Part shown: one piece after another, positions 36,866 through 44,170 of the stretch | Layout: every line of letters begins with the position of its first letter | Position numbering within the stretch: the first letter of the stretch is position 1 | NCBI RefSeq assembly: GCF_900044055.2 | Contig: NZ_FCOX02000001.1 | Coordinates: 186,001 to 250,000, forward strand | From: Caballeronia calidae | GTDB taxonomy: Bacteria > Pseudomonadota > Gammaproteobacteria > Burkholderiales > Burkholderiaceae | Direction: 5' to 3' | DNA: 64,000 nucleotides | The notes under the pieces: generated by a model | Told to the model about the DNA's origin: nothing | Database searches by the model: none | The model's input: only the letters and a program-made list of their open reading frames with translations | Translations under genes and position numbers: made by a program

Positions 36866-38248
36866 TCACATGCGCCGCACTTTGACTTTGCGGCCTTTCA
36901 GCTTGCCCGCGCCCAGTCTGCGCACGGCGTCGTCGGCGATATTTCGTTCGACGGCCACGTACGTGACCAGGTCCATCACGTTGATCTTGCCGATCTGCTT
37001 GCCGTCGTAGCCCGCTTCGCCGGTGAGCGCGCCGAGCACGTCGCCGGGACGGATCTTGTCCTTGCGGCCGCCGAGGATTTGCAGCGTCGCCATCGGCGGC
37101 TTCAGGTGGCCCGGTTCCGCCGATGTCAGCTCGGCCAGCGGATGCCATTCCACTTCCGCGCGCAGCAATTCCTCGATCGCGCCGACGCGCCCCATCTCGT
37201 CCATGCTCGCGAGCGACAGCGCCCAGCCCTCCTCGCCCGCGCGTCCCGTCCGTCCGATTCGATGGACGTGCACTTCGGGGTCCGGCGTCACATCGACATT
37301 GATCACCGCTTCGAGTTGCGCGATGTCGAGACCGCGCGCGGCGACATCGGTCGCGACGAGCACCGAGCAGCTGCGATTCGCGAACTGCACGAGCACCTGA
37401 TCGCGCTCGCGCTGTTCCAGTTCGCCGTGCAAGGTCAGCGCTTCGAAGCCCTGCGCGCGCAGCACGTCGAGCAAATCGCGGCATTGCTGCTTCGTGTTGC
37501 AGAACGCGATGGTGCTCACCGGCCGATAGTGATCGAGCAGCAAGCCGACCGCGTGCAGGCGCTCATCATCCTCGACCTGATAGAAGCGCTGCTTGATCTT
37601 CGCGTTGCTGTGCTGCTCGGTGAGCTTGATCTCGCGCGGATTGCGCAGGAACTGCTGGCTGAGCTTCGCGATGCCTTCGGGATACGTCGCCGAGAACAGC
37701 AAGGTCTGACGCTCCTTCGGACACTGGCGCGCTACGGACGCGATGTCGTCGAAGAAGCCCATGTCGAGCATGCGGTCGGCTTCATCGAGGACGAGCGTGC
37801 GGACCGCGTCGAGCGCGAGCGTTTCGCGCTGAAGGTGATCCATGATGCGCCCCGGCGTCCCGACGATGATGTGCGCGCCATGTTCCAGGCTCGCGACCTG
37901 CGGGCGCATCGGCGTGCCGCCGCATAGCGTCAGCACTTTCACGTTTTCTTCCGCACGCGCGAGGCGGCGGATTTCCTGCGTGACCTGATCGGCGAGCTCG
38001 CGCGTCGGGCAGAGCACGAGCGCCTGCACGGCGAATCGGCTAGCGTCGAGTTTGGAGAGCAATGGCAGCGTGAAGGCCGCGGTCTTGCCGCTGCCGGTTT
38101 TCGCCTGTGCGATGAGATCGTGGCCCGCGAGCGCGGGCGGCAGGCTCGCGGCCTGGATCGGCGTCATCGACAGATAGCCGAGTTGCTGCAGATTCGCCTG
38201 CATCGCCGGCGAGAGCGGCAGGCTGGTGAAGTTCGTATCGGTCGTCAT
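36866..38248 (-). CDS. dbpA: ATP-dependent RNA helicase DbpA
   Basis: DEAD-box helicase (460 residues) acting in 50S subunit assembly by binding hairpin 92 of 23S rRNA. Motifs run in order: Q-motif TPIQAASLP, I AKTGSGKT, II DEAD, III SAT, VI HRIGRTGRAG. A C-terminal RNA-recognition domain (about 385-460, VLGALTGEAGYDGKQIGKI) is diagnostic of DbpA and separates it from RhlE-type helicases. Its stop faces that of the DHA2 transporter with 3 bp between. Confidence 0.94.
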   Translation of the reverse strand: MTTDTNFTSLPLSPAMQANLQQLGYLSMTPIQAASLPPALAGHDLIAQAKTGSGKTAAFTLPLLSKLDASRFAVQALVLCPTRELADQVTQEIRRLARAEENVKVLTLCGGTPMRPQVASLEHGAHIIVGTPGRIMDHLQRETLALDAVRTLVLDEADRMLDMGFFDDIASVARQCPKERQTLLFSATYPEGIAKLSQQFLRNPREIKLTEQHSNAKIKQRFYQVEDDERLHAVGLLLDHYRPVSTIAFCNTKQQCRDLLDVLRAQGFEALTLHGELEQRERDQVLVQFANRSCSVLVATDVAARGLDIAQLEAVINVDVTPDPEVHVHRIGRTGRAGEEGWALSLASMDEMGRVGAIEELLRAEVEWHPLAELTSAEPGHLKPPMATLQILGGRKDKIRPGDVLGALTGEAGYDGKQIGKINVMDLVTYVAVERNIADDAVRRLGAGKLKGRKVKVRRM

Positions 38249-38252
38249 GGCG

Positions 38253-38447
38253 TTAGCGCTTGCCGTAGGGCGGGATTTCGGTGACCTGCTCGTACGTGGT
38301 TTCGCCTTCCTTTGTCTGGTGGCGTGTCACGTAGTTGCGCGCGCCGCACATCGGACAGCGGAACAGCAGGCCCTGGCCCTCGTTTTTGATGACGACGTCC
38401 GATAGCTCCCACGCTGCGCCGCAGGACTGATTTCGACAGGTGAACAT
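38253..38447 (-). CDS. Small zinc-ribbon protein
   Basis: 64 residues from ATG 38447: two Cys pairs or clusters, CRNQSC near the start and CPMCG near residue 31, arranged as a zinc ribbon, then a hydrophilic tail. It looks like a single-domain metal-binding protein conserved in Burkholderiales; the function is unknown. It lies 4 bp before dbpA on the same strand, so it is probably co-transcribed and might bind RNA, which is inference. The frame is open to 38540, but the upstream part lacks conservation-like features. Confidence 0.75.
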   Translation of the reverse strand: MFTCRNQSCGAAWELSDVVIKNEGQGLLFRCPMCGARNYVTRHQTKEGETTYEQVTEIPPYGKR

Positions 38448-38598
38448 ATTCGTGATTCTCTGGTTTCGTGGCGCGTTCGTGCGCTCAAAGGCGAAAGTGT
38501 ACGCGTGTCTCGTGTCGGCGCGGTCAGAGCAAGTCAGCAAGAAATGCTAAAGCGGGTCGTGCTACTTTGCTTGCATCGAGATTGTCCGGAGACAGACG

Positions 38599-39459
38599 AT
38601 GAGTAGCAGGCTCTACGAAGCGCGGCTCGCGCGCGTGGTCGCGCATATCCACGATCATCTCGACGACGAACTCGATCTCAATCGGCTCGCGGAGGTGGCG
38701 TGTTTGTCGCCGTATCACTGGCATCGGATTTATCACGCGTTCTATGGCGAGACGGCGGCGGCGACCGTGCGAAGGCTGCGCTTGCATCGGGCGGCGAATG
38801 AGCTTTTGCAGGGTTCGGTGCCAATCGATTCGATTGCCGAGCGCGCCGGGTACAGCAGCGTGCAGGCGTTTTCGCGGGCGTTTCAGGCCAGTTACCGGAT
38901 GGCGCCGGGGCAGTTTCGCAGCGCAGGCGGCGCTTCGATGTTTATGTCTTTGGATGAGACTCGATCAGGAGATACGGCGATGCATCAAGTCGATATTCGT
39001 ACTCAGCGTGGATTTACCGTCGCCGCGATGGAGCATCGCGGCTCGTATATGAACATCGGGCGGGCGTTCGAGATGCTGTTTCATTGGCTCGCAACGCGCG
39101 GGCTCGTCGATCCGCGGGCGCGATCGCTCGGGATTTATTTCGACGATCCGGCGGCTGTGGCCGAAGATGAACTGCGGTCGATGGCCTGTTGTGAGTTGTT
39201 CGGGCCGGATGCGGTGAAATTCGAGGCGCCGGTGTCACGTGTCGAAGTCGCGGGCGGGGAGTTTGCCGTGCTGACGCATGTCGGGCCGTATGCGCAGCTT
39301 TGCTTCGCGTATCAGTGGCTTTATGGGGAATGGTTGCCGAAGTCCGGACGCGAGACGGGCGAGGCGCCCGTGTTCGAGGTCTATGTGAGCGATCCGAAAG
39401 AAACCGCGCCGGCGGATCTGGTGACGGAAATCTGGTTGCCGCTGAAGGAATCGGTGTGA
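38599..39459 (+). CDS. AraC-type regulator with GyrI-like effector domain
   Basis: 286 residues. The N-terminal AraC double HTH (about 8-108) has the motifs LAEVACLSPYHWHRIYHAF and IAERAGYSSVQAFSRAF. The C-terminal half (about 125-284) is a GyrI-like/small-molecule-binding domain (GSYMNIGRAFEMLF, FEVYVSDP). Related proteins such as Rob and SbmC-type families sense or sequester ligands. ATG 38599 has GGAG nine bases upstream. Its stop faces the HNH endonuclease stop 2 bp away. Confidence 0.9.
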   Translation: MSSRLYEARLARVVAHIHDHLDDELDLNRLAEVACLSPYHWHRIYHAFYGETAAATVRRLRLHRAANELLQGSVPIDSIAERAGYSSVQAFSRAFQASYRMAPGQFRSAGGASMFMSLDETRSGDTAMHQVDIRTQRGFTVAAMEHRGSYMNIGRAFEMLFHWLATRGLVDPRARSLGIYFDDPAAVAEDELRSMACCELFGPDAVKFEAPVSRVEVAGGEFAVLTHVGPYAQLCFAYQWLYGEWLPKSGRETGEAPVFEVYVSDPKETAPADLVTEIWLPLKESV

Positions 39460-39461
39460 TG

Positions 39462-40385
39462 TCAGATCGGCCGCGCGGCGCCTTTGAATACCTGGTCGCG
39501 ATGCCAGTCGACGAAGCGCTGTTCCGGATGATGTTCCTTTCGCACGGGCGCGTTCAATTGTCCGCCGTGATGTCTGAGCAAGATTTCGTCGAAGCGCTGG
39601 CTTCCGTGCGCTTGCTCCGAAACGAGCACGCGACGATCGTCGCCCAACGTGAACGCGCCGATGTCGAAGAGCTTGTGATGCAGACAGCACAGCGCGATGC
39701 CGTTCTCGACGACATCCGGGCCGCTCGCCTGATGCCACTTGATATGCGCAGCTTCGAGGCCGATCGTCATGTTGCCGATGCGCAGATCCAGATCGCATAG
39801 CGCGCATCGATACTGATACGCGGTGAGCACGGCGCTCCGAAACTCAGGGTCGCGCCGCCTGCGCGTAACCGACGTGTCATTGACGAGCGTGGATACTGCC
39901 TCGTCGTCGAGCGCGAGCCCGACTGCATCGAGAACATCGCTGTGAATGCTGTCCGGAAAATGCGCCGCGAGCAGCAGGCGGGCGATCGCGTTGATCGCTT
40001 TGGGGTCGCGCTGGAAAAGTTGCTGCACTTCGCGCGAAAAATGTCCCGTTGCGTTCAGTTCCCGCAGTTCGGTCTTTTTCAGATCGTTTCGCCGTGCGAT
40101 CGGATCGGACGCTCCGTCGACCGTGACCTCCCATACGTCGTCGTTTTTCAAACGAATGAACGGCATCTCCGGGTAAAGCGTCCGGCGTTGCGGGGCAAAT
40201 TCCCGCAGGAGTTCGCTCAACTTGCCCTCGTACTGAAGGAAGGGCACGTCTTTGATGCCTTGCGTGTACAACCCGAGCGCCAGCAATACGAGAAGCGGCT
40301 TATGAGGCGCGCGTTCACCGTTGCGCCGCCAGATGTTCAAATCGGCAAAGCGCTGAAGCACTTCGGTAAGGTTGGAAGCGTTCAT
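39462..40385 (-). CDS. HNH restriction endonuclease with phosphorothioate-DNA-binding type N-terminus
   Basis: 307 residues. The N-terminal segment has the sulfur-binding-domain pattern of McrA-like type IV enzymes: GERAPHKPLL (23-32), VPFLQYEGKLSELLREFAP (47-65) and YPEMPFIRLKNDDVWEV (71-87). The C-terminal HNH nuclease has CALC (194-197), AAHIKWH with His214, ENGIALC with Asn228, and CLHHKLFD (His236/237). Known relatives cleave DNA carrying Dnd-type phosphorothioate modification. No dnd genes are in the window. It stands alone between gyrB and a regulator gene. The family assignment rests on motif recognition. Confidence 0.8.
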   Translation of the reverse strand: MNASNLTEVLQRFADLNIWRRNGERAPHKPLLVLLALGLYTQGIKDVPFLQYEGKLSELLREFAPQRRTLYPEMPFIRLKNDDVWEVTVDGASDPIARRNDLKKTELRELNATGHFSREVQQLFQRDPKAINAIARLLLAAHFPDSIHSDVLDAVGLALDDEAVSTLVNDTSVTRRRRDPEFRSAVLTAYQYRCALCDLDLRIGNMTIGLEAAHIKWHQASGPDVVENGIALCCLHHKLFDIGAFTLGDDRRVLVSEQAHGSQRFDEILLRHHGGQLNAPVRKEHHPEQRFVDWHRDQVFKGAARPI

Positions 40386-40410
40386 ACTTCAAACAAACAA
40401 TCGACGGCAA

Positions 40411-40446
40411 AGAAAAACCCGTGACGCTCAGTGCGAACACGGGTTT
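40411..40446 (-). terminator. Terminator after gyrB
   Basis: Stem AAACCCGTG / CACGGGTTT (40415-40423, 40438-40446) with a 14-nt loop. Read leftward it is followed by TTCTTTG. It lies about 25 bp past the gyrB stop and before the HNH gene start region. Confidence 0.72.
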
Positions 40447-40469
40447 GGATGGCGCGGGAGGCTTACACC

Positions 40470-44170
<3,701 letters not shown>

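Follow-up and report, generated by a model that had tools for sequence, protein, structure and literature searches.

A probable phosphorothioate-dependent restriction endonuclease gene at a recurrent defence site behind gyrB in Caballeronia

The gene behind gyrB and its product

We studied a 64,000-nucleotide stretch of the genome of the soil bacterium Caballeronia calidae (contig NZ_FCOX02000001.1, positions 186,001 to 250,000; hereafter the window), which carries a gene of a phosphorothioate (PT)-dependent restriction endonuclease family directly behind the essential gene gyrB. The open reading frame (ORF) at 39462..40385 on the minus strand has an ATG start and no internal stop, and encodes 307 amino acids (aa) in which a sulfur-binding domain (SBD) is followed by an HNH nuclease domain. 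The protein scored 350.7 bits (E 4.9e-105) with the NCBIfam profile NF045808, phosphorothioated DNA-binding restriction endonuclease, whose curated cut-off is 180; the alignment spans profile positions 3-284 of 284, i.e. residues 8-300. In Pfam, HNH_2 was the sole domain above cut-off (40.5 bits versus 21), while the matches in PADLOC (two HNH models, one type IV model) were all confined to the HNH part. Because Pfam and PADLOC see only this part, the NCBIfam model or a structure is needed to confirm the reading of the N-terminus. An SRA domain separating the SBD from the HNH domain was not among the Pfam matches, which places the protein outside the ScoMcrA-type SBD-SRA-HNH enzymes.

The SBD (residues 1-160; 39906..40385, minus strand) has the sulfur-binding-domain fold. 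Its sulfur pocket was located by alignment with ScoMcrA, using the pocket residues given in the available part of PMC6224610. Residues H28-K29 (40299..40304, minus strand) align with ScoMcrA H116-R117 and are invariant in 15 orthologues, and M74-P75 (40161..40166, minus strand) align with Y164-P165; P75 is invariant, and M74 is replaced by leucine in lineage II of the four gene lineages described below. H28, K29, M74 and P75 thus provide the H-(K/R) pair and the proline with a hydrophobic neighbour that make up the pocket. Residues A97-D101 (40083..40097, minus strand) align without gaps with ScoMcrA S187-R191, which contacts bases according to PMC6224610. This lineage-dependent loop reads ARRND in the window allele and is similar across lineage I, VL followed by R or H in lineage II, mostly ASNA in lineage III, and DIRND in lineage IV; the alignment between lineages is gapped at residues 92-96. 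None of the 18 columns at residues 86-103 was invariant among the 15 orthologues, against 49 of 132 elsewhere in residues 1-150. Since the linker at residues 158-177 is equally variable, variability alone is no proof of a reading function for residues 86-103. Judging from these alignments, the loop around A97-D101 may be a specificity loop.

The HNH nuclease domain (HNH_2, residues 193-246; 39648..39809, minus strand) contains zinc-type ligands in CxxC and CxxH arrangement together with H214, N228 and H237. Its catalytic and zinc residues (C194, C197, H214, N228, C233, C234, H236 and H237) are invariant in the 15 orthologues. A preliminary description of this DNA had proposed a PT-dependent SBD-HNH endonuclease, an identity that family, fold and residues support. 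It had named H214, N228 and H236/H237 correctly, as well as a GERAPHKPLL segment, found at residues 23-32. The YPEMPF segment that it reported is present at residues 71-76, but according to the ScoMcrA alignment the pocket pair inside it is M74-P75 and not Y71-P72.

The ratio of non-synonymous to synonymous substitutions (dN/dS; Nei-Gojobori) was 0.08-0.18 across 12 orthologue pairs and 0.13 between the window gene and its nearest orthologue. In 11 of the 12 pairs, the HNH part had a lower ratio than the SBD part. Hence, this is a maintained coding gene under purifying selection.

The protein is a fresh member of an already known SBD-HNH family, and its setting behind gyrB is the informative part. 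Like EcoWI-type enzymes (NF045808), it has the SBD before the HNH domain and CxxC and CxxH pairs in the HNH part, and it comes near the SBD signature KPzzLL / PF.L / W, with V33 where the motif has L (signature and HNH motifs from the available part of PMC7461809). Unlike the genes of EcoWI-type enzymes, the window gene occupies a fixed chromosomal site. Identity was 37.7 and 38.4% to plasmid relatives from E. coli and Klebsiella annotated as NF045808 family, EcoWI itself being outside this comparison. ScoMcrA of Streptomyces coelicolor differs in its SRA domain, in having Y164 and R117 where the window protein has M and K, and in a dissimilar S187-R191 loop. SprMcrA, which we take to be from Streptomyces pristinaespiralis, is 15% identical over the SBD and has Y31-Q32 in its pocket instead of H28-K29, an equivalence drawn through ScoMcrA.

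The nearest homologue found outside the genus, in a Rubrivivax metagenome-assembled genome (MAG), is 57% identical over nearly its full length; it lies near dndBC and, in the sequence read, not behind gyrB. The PT-DNA restriction endonuclease of Methylibium petroleiphilum plasmid RPME01 is 55% identical, also over nearly its full length. It is located on a conjugative plasmid and not behind gyrB, and the gene table, itself incomplete, lists no dnd gene in the 24.9 kb read. Three relatives were found in viral contigs (38-41% identity) and three in phage records (<39%).

Both borders of the site are conserved genes. Upstream, gyrB (40470..43010, minus strand) was matched in 58 of 58 genus genomes, and its stop codon lies 84 bases from the start codon of the endonuclease gene. 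A hairpin with a T-run (40415..40446, minus strand) in this gap is, on fold prediction, the probable gyrB terminator; a consensus scan of 39200-40700 returned no terminator-like sites and seemingly ignores inner loops such as that of the hairpin. Downstream, the endonuclease gene nearly abuts a convergent gene for an AraC/GyrI-like regulator (38599..39459, plus strand), the two ends lying at 39462 and 39459. Further conserved flanks are a gene for a small zinc-ribbon-like protein (38253..38540, minus strand) and a DEAD-box helicase gene (36866..38248, minus strand), presumably dbpA-like, as the preliminary description also named it. All Pfam matches of the zinc-ribbon-like protein were below cut-off, including one to the restriction-alleviation protein Lar (18.6 versus 28.6 bits), and it is probably a mere zinc ribbon.

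The gyrB 3' flank across Caballeronia

We compared the site in 58 Caballeronia genomes, numbered G000 onwards, in which G000 is the genome of the window (9.6 Mb, 379 contigs). The window protein was matched in 26 of them at 1e-5. Seven matches covered the HNH half only, at 32-37% identity, and were not counted as orthologues (G020, G024, G028, G030, G034, G043, G052), leaving 19 genomes with an orthologue or a piece of one. Spread through the family was rejected, because all 18 matching genomes (at 1e-12) in a sample of 299 family genomes from 25 genera were Caballeronia, one of them (G030) matching in the HNH part only.

In 16 of the 19 genomes the gene lies directly behind gyrB, within ~110 bases. 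In the other three the downstream neighbours are kept and the gene is parted from gyrB: by a Tn7-like element (TnsA, transposase, TniB and TniQ domains) with a type ISP/IIG restriction-modification gene in G009, by a contig break with BREX genes (BrxL, PglZ, PglX) behind gyrB in G041, and by SspB, SspC, SspD and two further genes in G047. Moreover, the Wadjet genes JetC, JetD and part of JetA lie behind gyrB in G001, and other long intervals (e.g. G013, G027, G053) contain, judging by eye, genes for ordinary metabolism, repair or porins, and no defence genes. Since Tn7-like restriction-modification, BREX, Ssp and Wadjet genes also occur here, defence systems recur at the gyrB 3' flank in this genus, and the window gene is no lone oddity. 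A literature search (titles and abstract openings, few subscription journals covered) found no paper on PT restriction in Caballeronia or on a defence site at gyrB. The Tn7-like element of G009 (L071 5485-11158) lies just behind gyrB, and G016 has a TnsA fragment at this place (L094 1953-2438) that is 86% identical over 159 residues to that of G009. Tn7-like elements may thus use the 3' end of gyrB as an attachment site.

Every copy of the gene falls within one clade of 37 genomes in the rpoB tree; G042 has no rpoB row, and G001 lies outside this clade. This clade contains 15 intact copies, one cut by a contig end (G026), three degraded copies (G014, G039, G047), 13 gyrB-araC junctions without the gene, two loci with other inserts (G016, G045) and three unresolved loci (G003, G024, G025). 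All 39 genomes without the gene were searched for scars. For 15 of them (the 13 junctions, G037 and G045) the search took in the full interval. It was limited to the first 0.66-0.78 kb in 13 genomes whose intervals are long, and to the sequence before a contig end or up to ~1.3 kb in 11 that lack a downstream anchor (G003, G008, G010, G020, G024, G025, G028, G032, G042, G046, G050). One junction, in G019, retains approximately the last 35 codons of the gene, nearest to lineage II (score 122 versus a shuffled maximum of 41), and 12 junctions have neither gene nor scar. Candidates in G017 (43 versus 40), G035 (49 versus 43) and G055 (50 versus 49) were judged to be noise. In G047 collinearity with the relatives extends to a point just beyond the gyrB stop; ~10.6 kb with SspBCD follow, and the relatives' sequence is rejoined near codon 73, i.e. 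SspBCD has replaced the 5' end of the gene at the gyrB site.

Four gene lineages at one site

A tree of the 15 intact genes and one outgroup resolved four lineages: lineage I (the window gene, G041, G007, G056, G009), lineage II (G002, G005, G054), lineage III (G006, G012, G048, G040, G049, G038) and lineage IV (G021). The rpoB tree instead groups G021, G041 and G054 (Shimodaira-Hasegawa-like approximate likelihood ratio test support 99), and G002, G005, G009 and G052 (support 96). The gene tree rejects grouping G021/G041/G054 (p 2e-14), G002/G005/G009 (p 3e-5) and G021/G041/G054/G000 (p 7e-7), with p values that are somewhat generous because the groups were picked after the identities were known.

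The flanking dbpA and mfs genes were long enough for a tree in 37 of the 58 genomes, a set that differs from the 37-genome rpoB clade. In this flank tree, G041 (lineage I) and G054 (lineage II) are sisters (98) with G021 (lineage IV) nearby, and G007 (lineage I) is joined with G002 and G005 of lineage II (100). In these genomes the flanking genes keep their grouping, and the gene next to them is of a different lineage. Because the four lineages conflict with both rpoB and the flanking genes, the gene is exchanged as a cassette at a fixed site behind gyrB. The preliminary description had regarded the gene as solitary and unusual here, and as either vertically kept or recently inserted. Neither view was borne out: the flank recurrently holds defence systems, and species have swapped the gene in the form of four divergent lineages, besides losing it or keeping only degraded copies.

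Writers of the modification and the role of the site

Profile searches of G000 found no DndE or DUF4007/SspB and no DndC (TIGR03183) above cut-off, with gaps possible in an assembly of 379 contigs. The window gene is thus not accompanied by dndBCDE or sspBCD, and the absence of a Dnd or Ssp writer agrees with what had been predicted for this host. One DndC candidate (G000:C20:37038-37898) was rejected on account of its score (149 bits versus 290.4), its SbcC/SbcD-like neighbours and the absence of DndE and DUF4007 from the genome. The locus in question (L066 8178-16429) encodes a 601-aa PAPS-reductase-like protein alongside SbcC-like, SbcD-like and phrog_15826 proteins, and looks phage- or plasmid-like; several genus genomes have DndC-like matches with similar scores, mostly in ORFs of ~570-720 aa.

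DndC was above cut-off in six of the 299 family genomes, and therefore genes for modified DNA exist among the relatives. TIGR03183 was run on this family sample and not on the whole genus, where we counted a DndE or DUF4007 match as a writer. Four of the 58 genus genomes have such markers, G019 (Dnd) and G036, G047 and G057 (Ssp), and none of the four has an intact endonuclease gene. G019 is the only Dnd genome among the 58, with DndB, DndC, DndE and a DndD/PbeC-type match on a contig other than that of the gyrB scar. The junction of G057 is scarless, and G036 lies outside the 37-genome clade. Two of the four degraded or scarred loci thus coincide with the four writers (hypergeometric p 0.021; 0.026 within the clade, with 4 and 3 of 37). 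In Streptomyces, laboratory transfer showed a PT-dependent endonuclease and a PT writer to be incompatible within one cell and forced their mutual loss (PMC3009677); the pattern in Caballeronia, although thin, mirrors that loss. In a class sample of 335 genomes, NF045808 (4), DndE (1) and DUF4007 (11) did not overlap above cut-off, in numbers far too small to weigh; below cut-off, five DUF4007 genomes had partial NF045808 matches (G436, G515, G542, G565, G621), of which G515 and G565 also had weak DndE matches.

Several writer loci and SBD genes have features of their own. In G565, a DUF4007/SspB match adjoins one to the SBD part of NF045808 on the same strand, each in a 461-aa frame (G565:C1:1743763-1745049), which probably represents an SBD-SspB fusion, and in G515 and G621 ORFs of ~800 aa with an SBD-like stretch have DUF4007 within ~5 kb. 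SBDs may also serve inside writer islands. One class genome has three NF045808 family genes in tandem (G362:C112:14080-16725). Beside SspBCD in G047 (L074 4687-9206) lie a 682-aa gene without a match and an 824-aa gene with two HATPase domains, neither recognised by PADLOC, which are a possible Ssp partner in place of SspE. The Ssp loci of G036 and G057 (L191 10858-13431, L192 5990-8578) encode ~860-aa proteins, 63% identical and without a PADLOC match in the one scanned, and very long ORFs (1500 and 1820 aa) on the opposite side.

Taken together, the gene very probably encodes a PT-dependent SBD-HNH restriction endonuclease, and it is a cassette open to exchange at the defence site that the genus has immediately behind gyrB. 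The N-terminal domain would dock through the H28/K29/M74/P75 pocket on a short DNA motif with an Rp sulfur in the backbone, the loop around residues 97-101 would read the neighbouring bases, and the HNH domain would then cut nearby. As a barrier, the enzyme would destroy DNA from Dnd- or Ssp-modifying donors and leave the unmodified host safe. Different species hold at the site one of the four lineages, a relic, another defence system or nothing. A genome gaining a PT writer should have to lose the enzyme.

Several observations weigh against parts of this interpretation. A scan found no sigma-70-like promoter upstream of the gene, and its expression is only presumed. The structure model is poor in the HNH half, leaving the fold of that half unconfirmed by the model, and residues 65-73 next to the pocket have predicted local distance difference test (pLDDT) scores <50. 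Compared with rpoB, the flank tree separates G009 from G002/G005, and G039 from the genomes of lineage III, and therefore recombination is not confined to the cassette and the flank test is weaker than the rpoB test. On its own, the finding that all 15 genomes with an intact gene lack a writer falls short of significance (p 0.29; 0.20 for the clade). Nor does a writer accompany the degraded loci of G014 and G039. The same holds for 11 of the 12 junctions with neither gene nor scar, and loss therefore has other causes too. The Ssp insertion at this busy site may have broken the G047 gene by chance, as the enzyme may read a context other than that of Ssp, CpsCA on one strand according to PMC9646914. 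Finally, in the Rubrivivax MAG (L207 6001-12885) the SBD-HNH homologue lies ~4 kb from dndB with dndC directly next (534 bits for DndB, 622 for DndC), and hence the exclusion of reader and writer is not absolute. Between homologue and dndBC lie a probably transposase-like ORF and a gene for an 866-aa protein without a PADLOC match. The neighbourhood analysis in PMC7461809 gives <3.6% for such cases, and as reasons inactive enzymes, dead clusters or different contexts.

Among other explanations, presence and absence could reflect vertical inheritance with repeated loss, the apparent swap of lineages being due to differing evolutionary rates or to old paralogues at a single site. The confinement of all copies to one rpoB clade is consistent with a single gain. 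Under the labels applied, the rpoB tree calls for at least seven changes. We consider this unlikely, as the rpoB group G021/G041/G054 carries three lineages and is rejected by the gene tree, the flanks keep G041 and G054 as sisters, and none of the 58 genomes has two full orthologue copies. It is still less probable that the gene is a relic on its way out, which keeps the architecture of an inactive enzyme and owes its place to a recombination-prone site. Three degraded copies, one 3' scar, twelve junctions with neither gene nor scar and the missing promoter-like site fit decay; the low dN/dS ratios, including that of the window gene, and the retained site residues speak against it. The enzyme might also read another modification, such as modified cytosine or a hypermodified phage base, as ScoMcrA does through its SRA domain. 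PT specificity is only predicted here, and ScoMcrA cuts hydroxymethylated DNA and Dcm-methylated DNA according to the available parts of PMC7461809 and PMC3009677, respectively. With no SRA listed by Pfam, NF045808 covering residues 8-300, and H28, K29 and P75 invariant, there is little chance that this applies to the window protein.

The exchangeable PT-dependent cassette is thus the reading that we prefer. A bolder and rather doubtful extension is that the gyrB 3' flank might act as a PT-compatibility switch, a single slot holding allelic readers of differing contexts or, after their destruction, a writer. If so, reader and writer would replace each other in place as species trade DNA. Beside the laboratory transfer in Streptomyces, Caballeronia offers natural cases, namely the Dnd genome in which the gene is reduced to a scar, and the Ssp cluster that has taken the place of its 5' end. 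The four lineages, with H28/K29/P75 invariant and a differing putative loop, form a panel for studying sequence choice by SBDs and may yield new enzymes with which to map sulfur-modified DNA. The setting deserves specialist attention as an exchangeable slot where the reader and the writer of one DNA mark meet.
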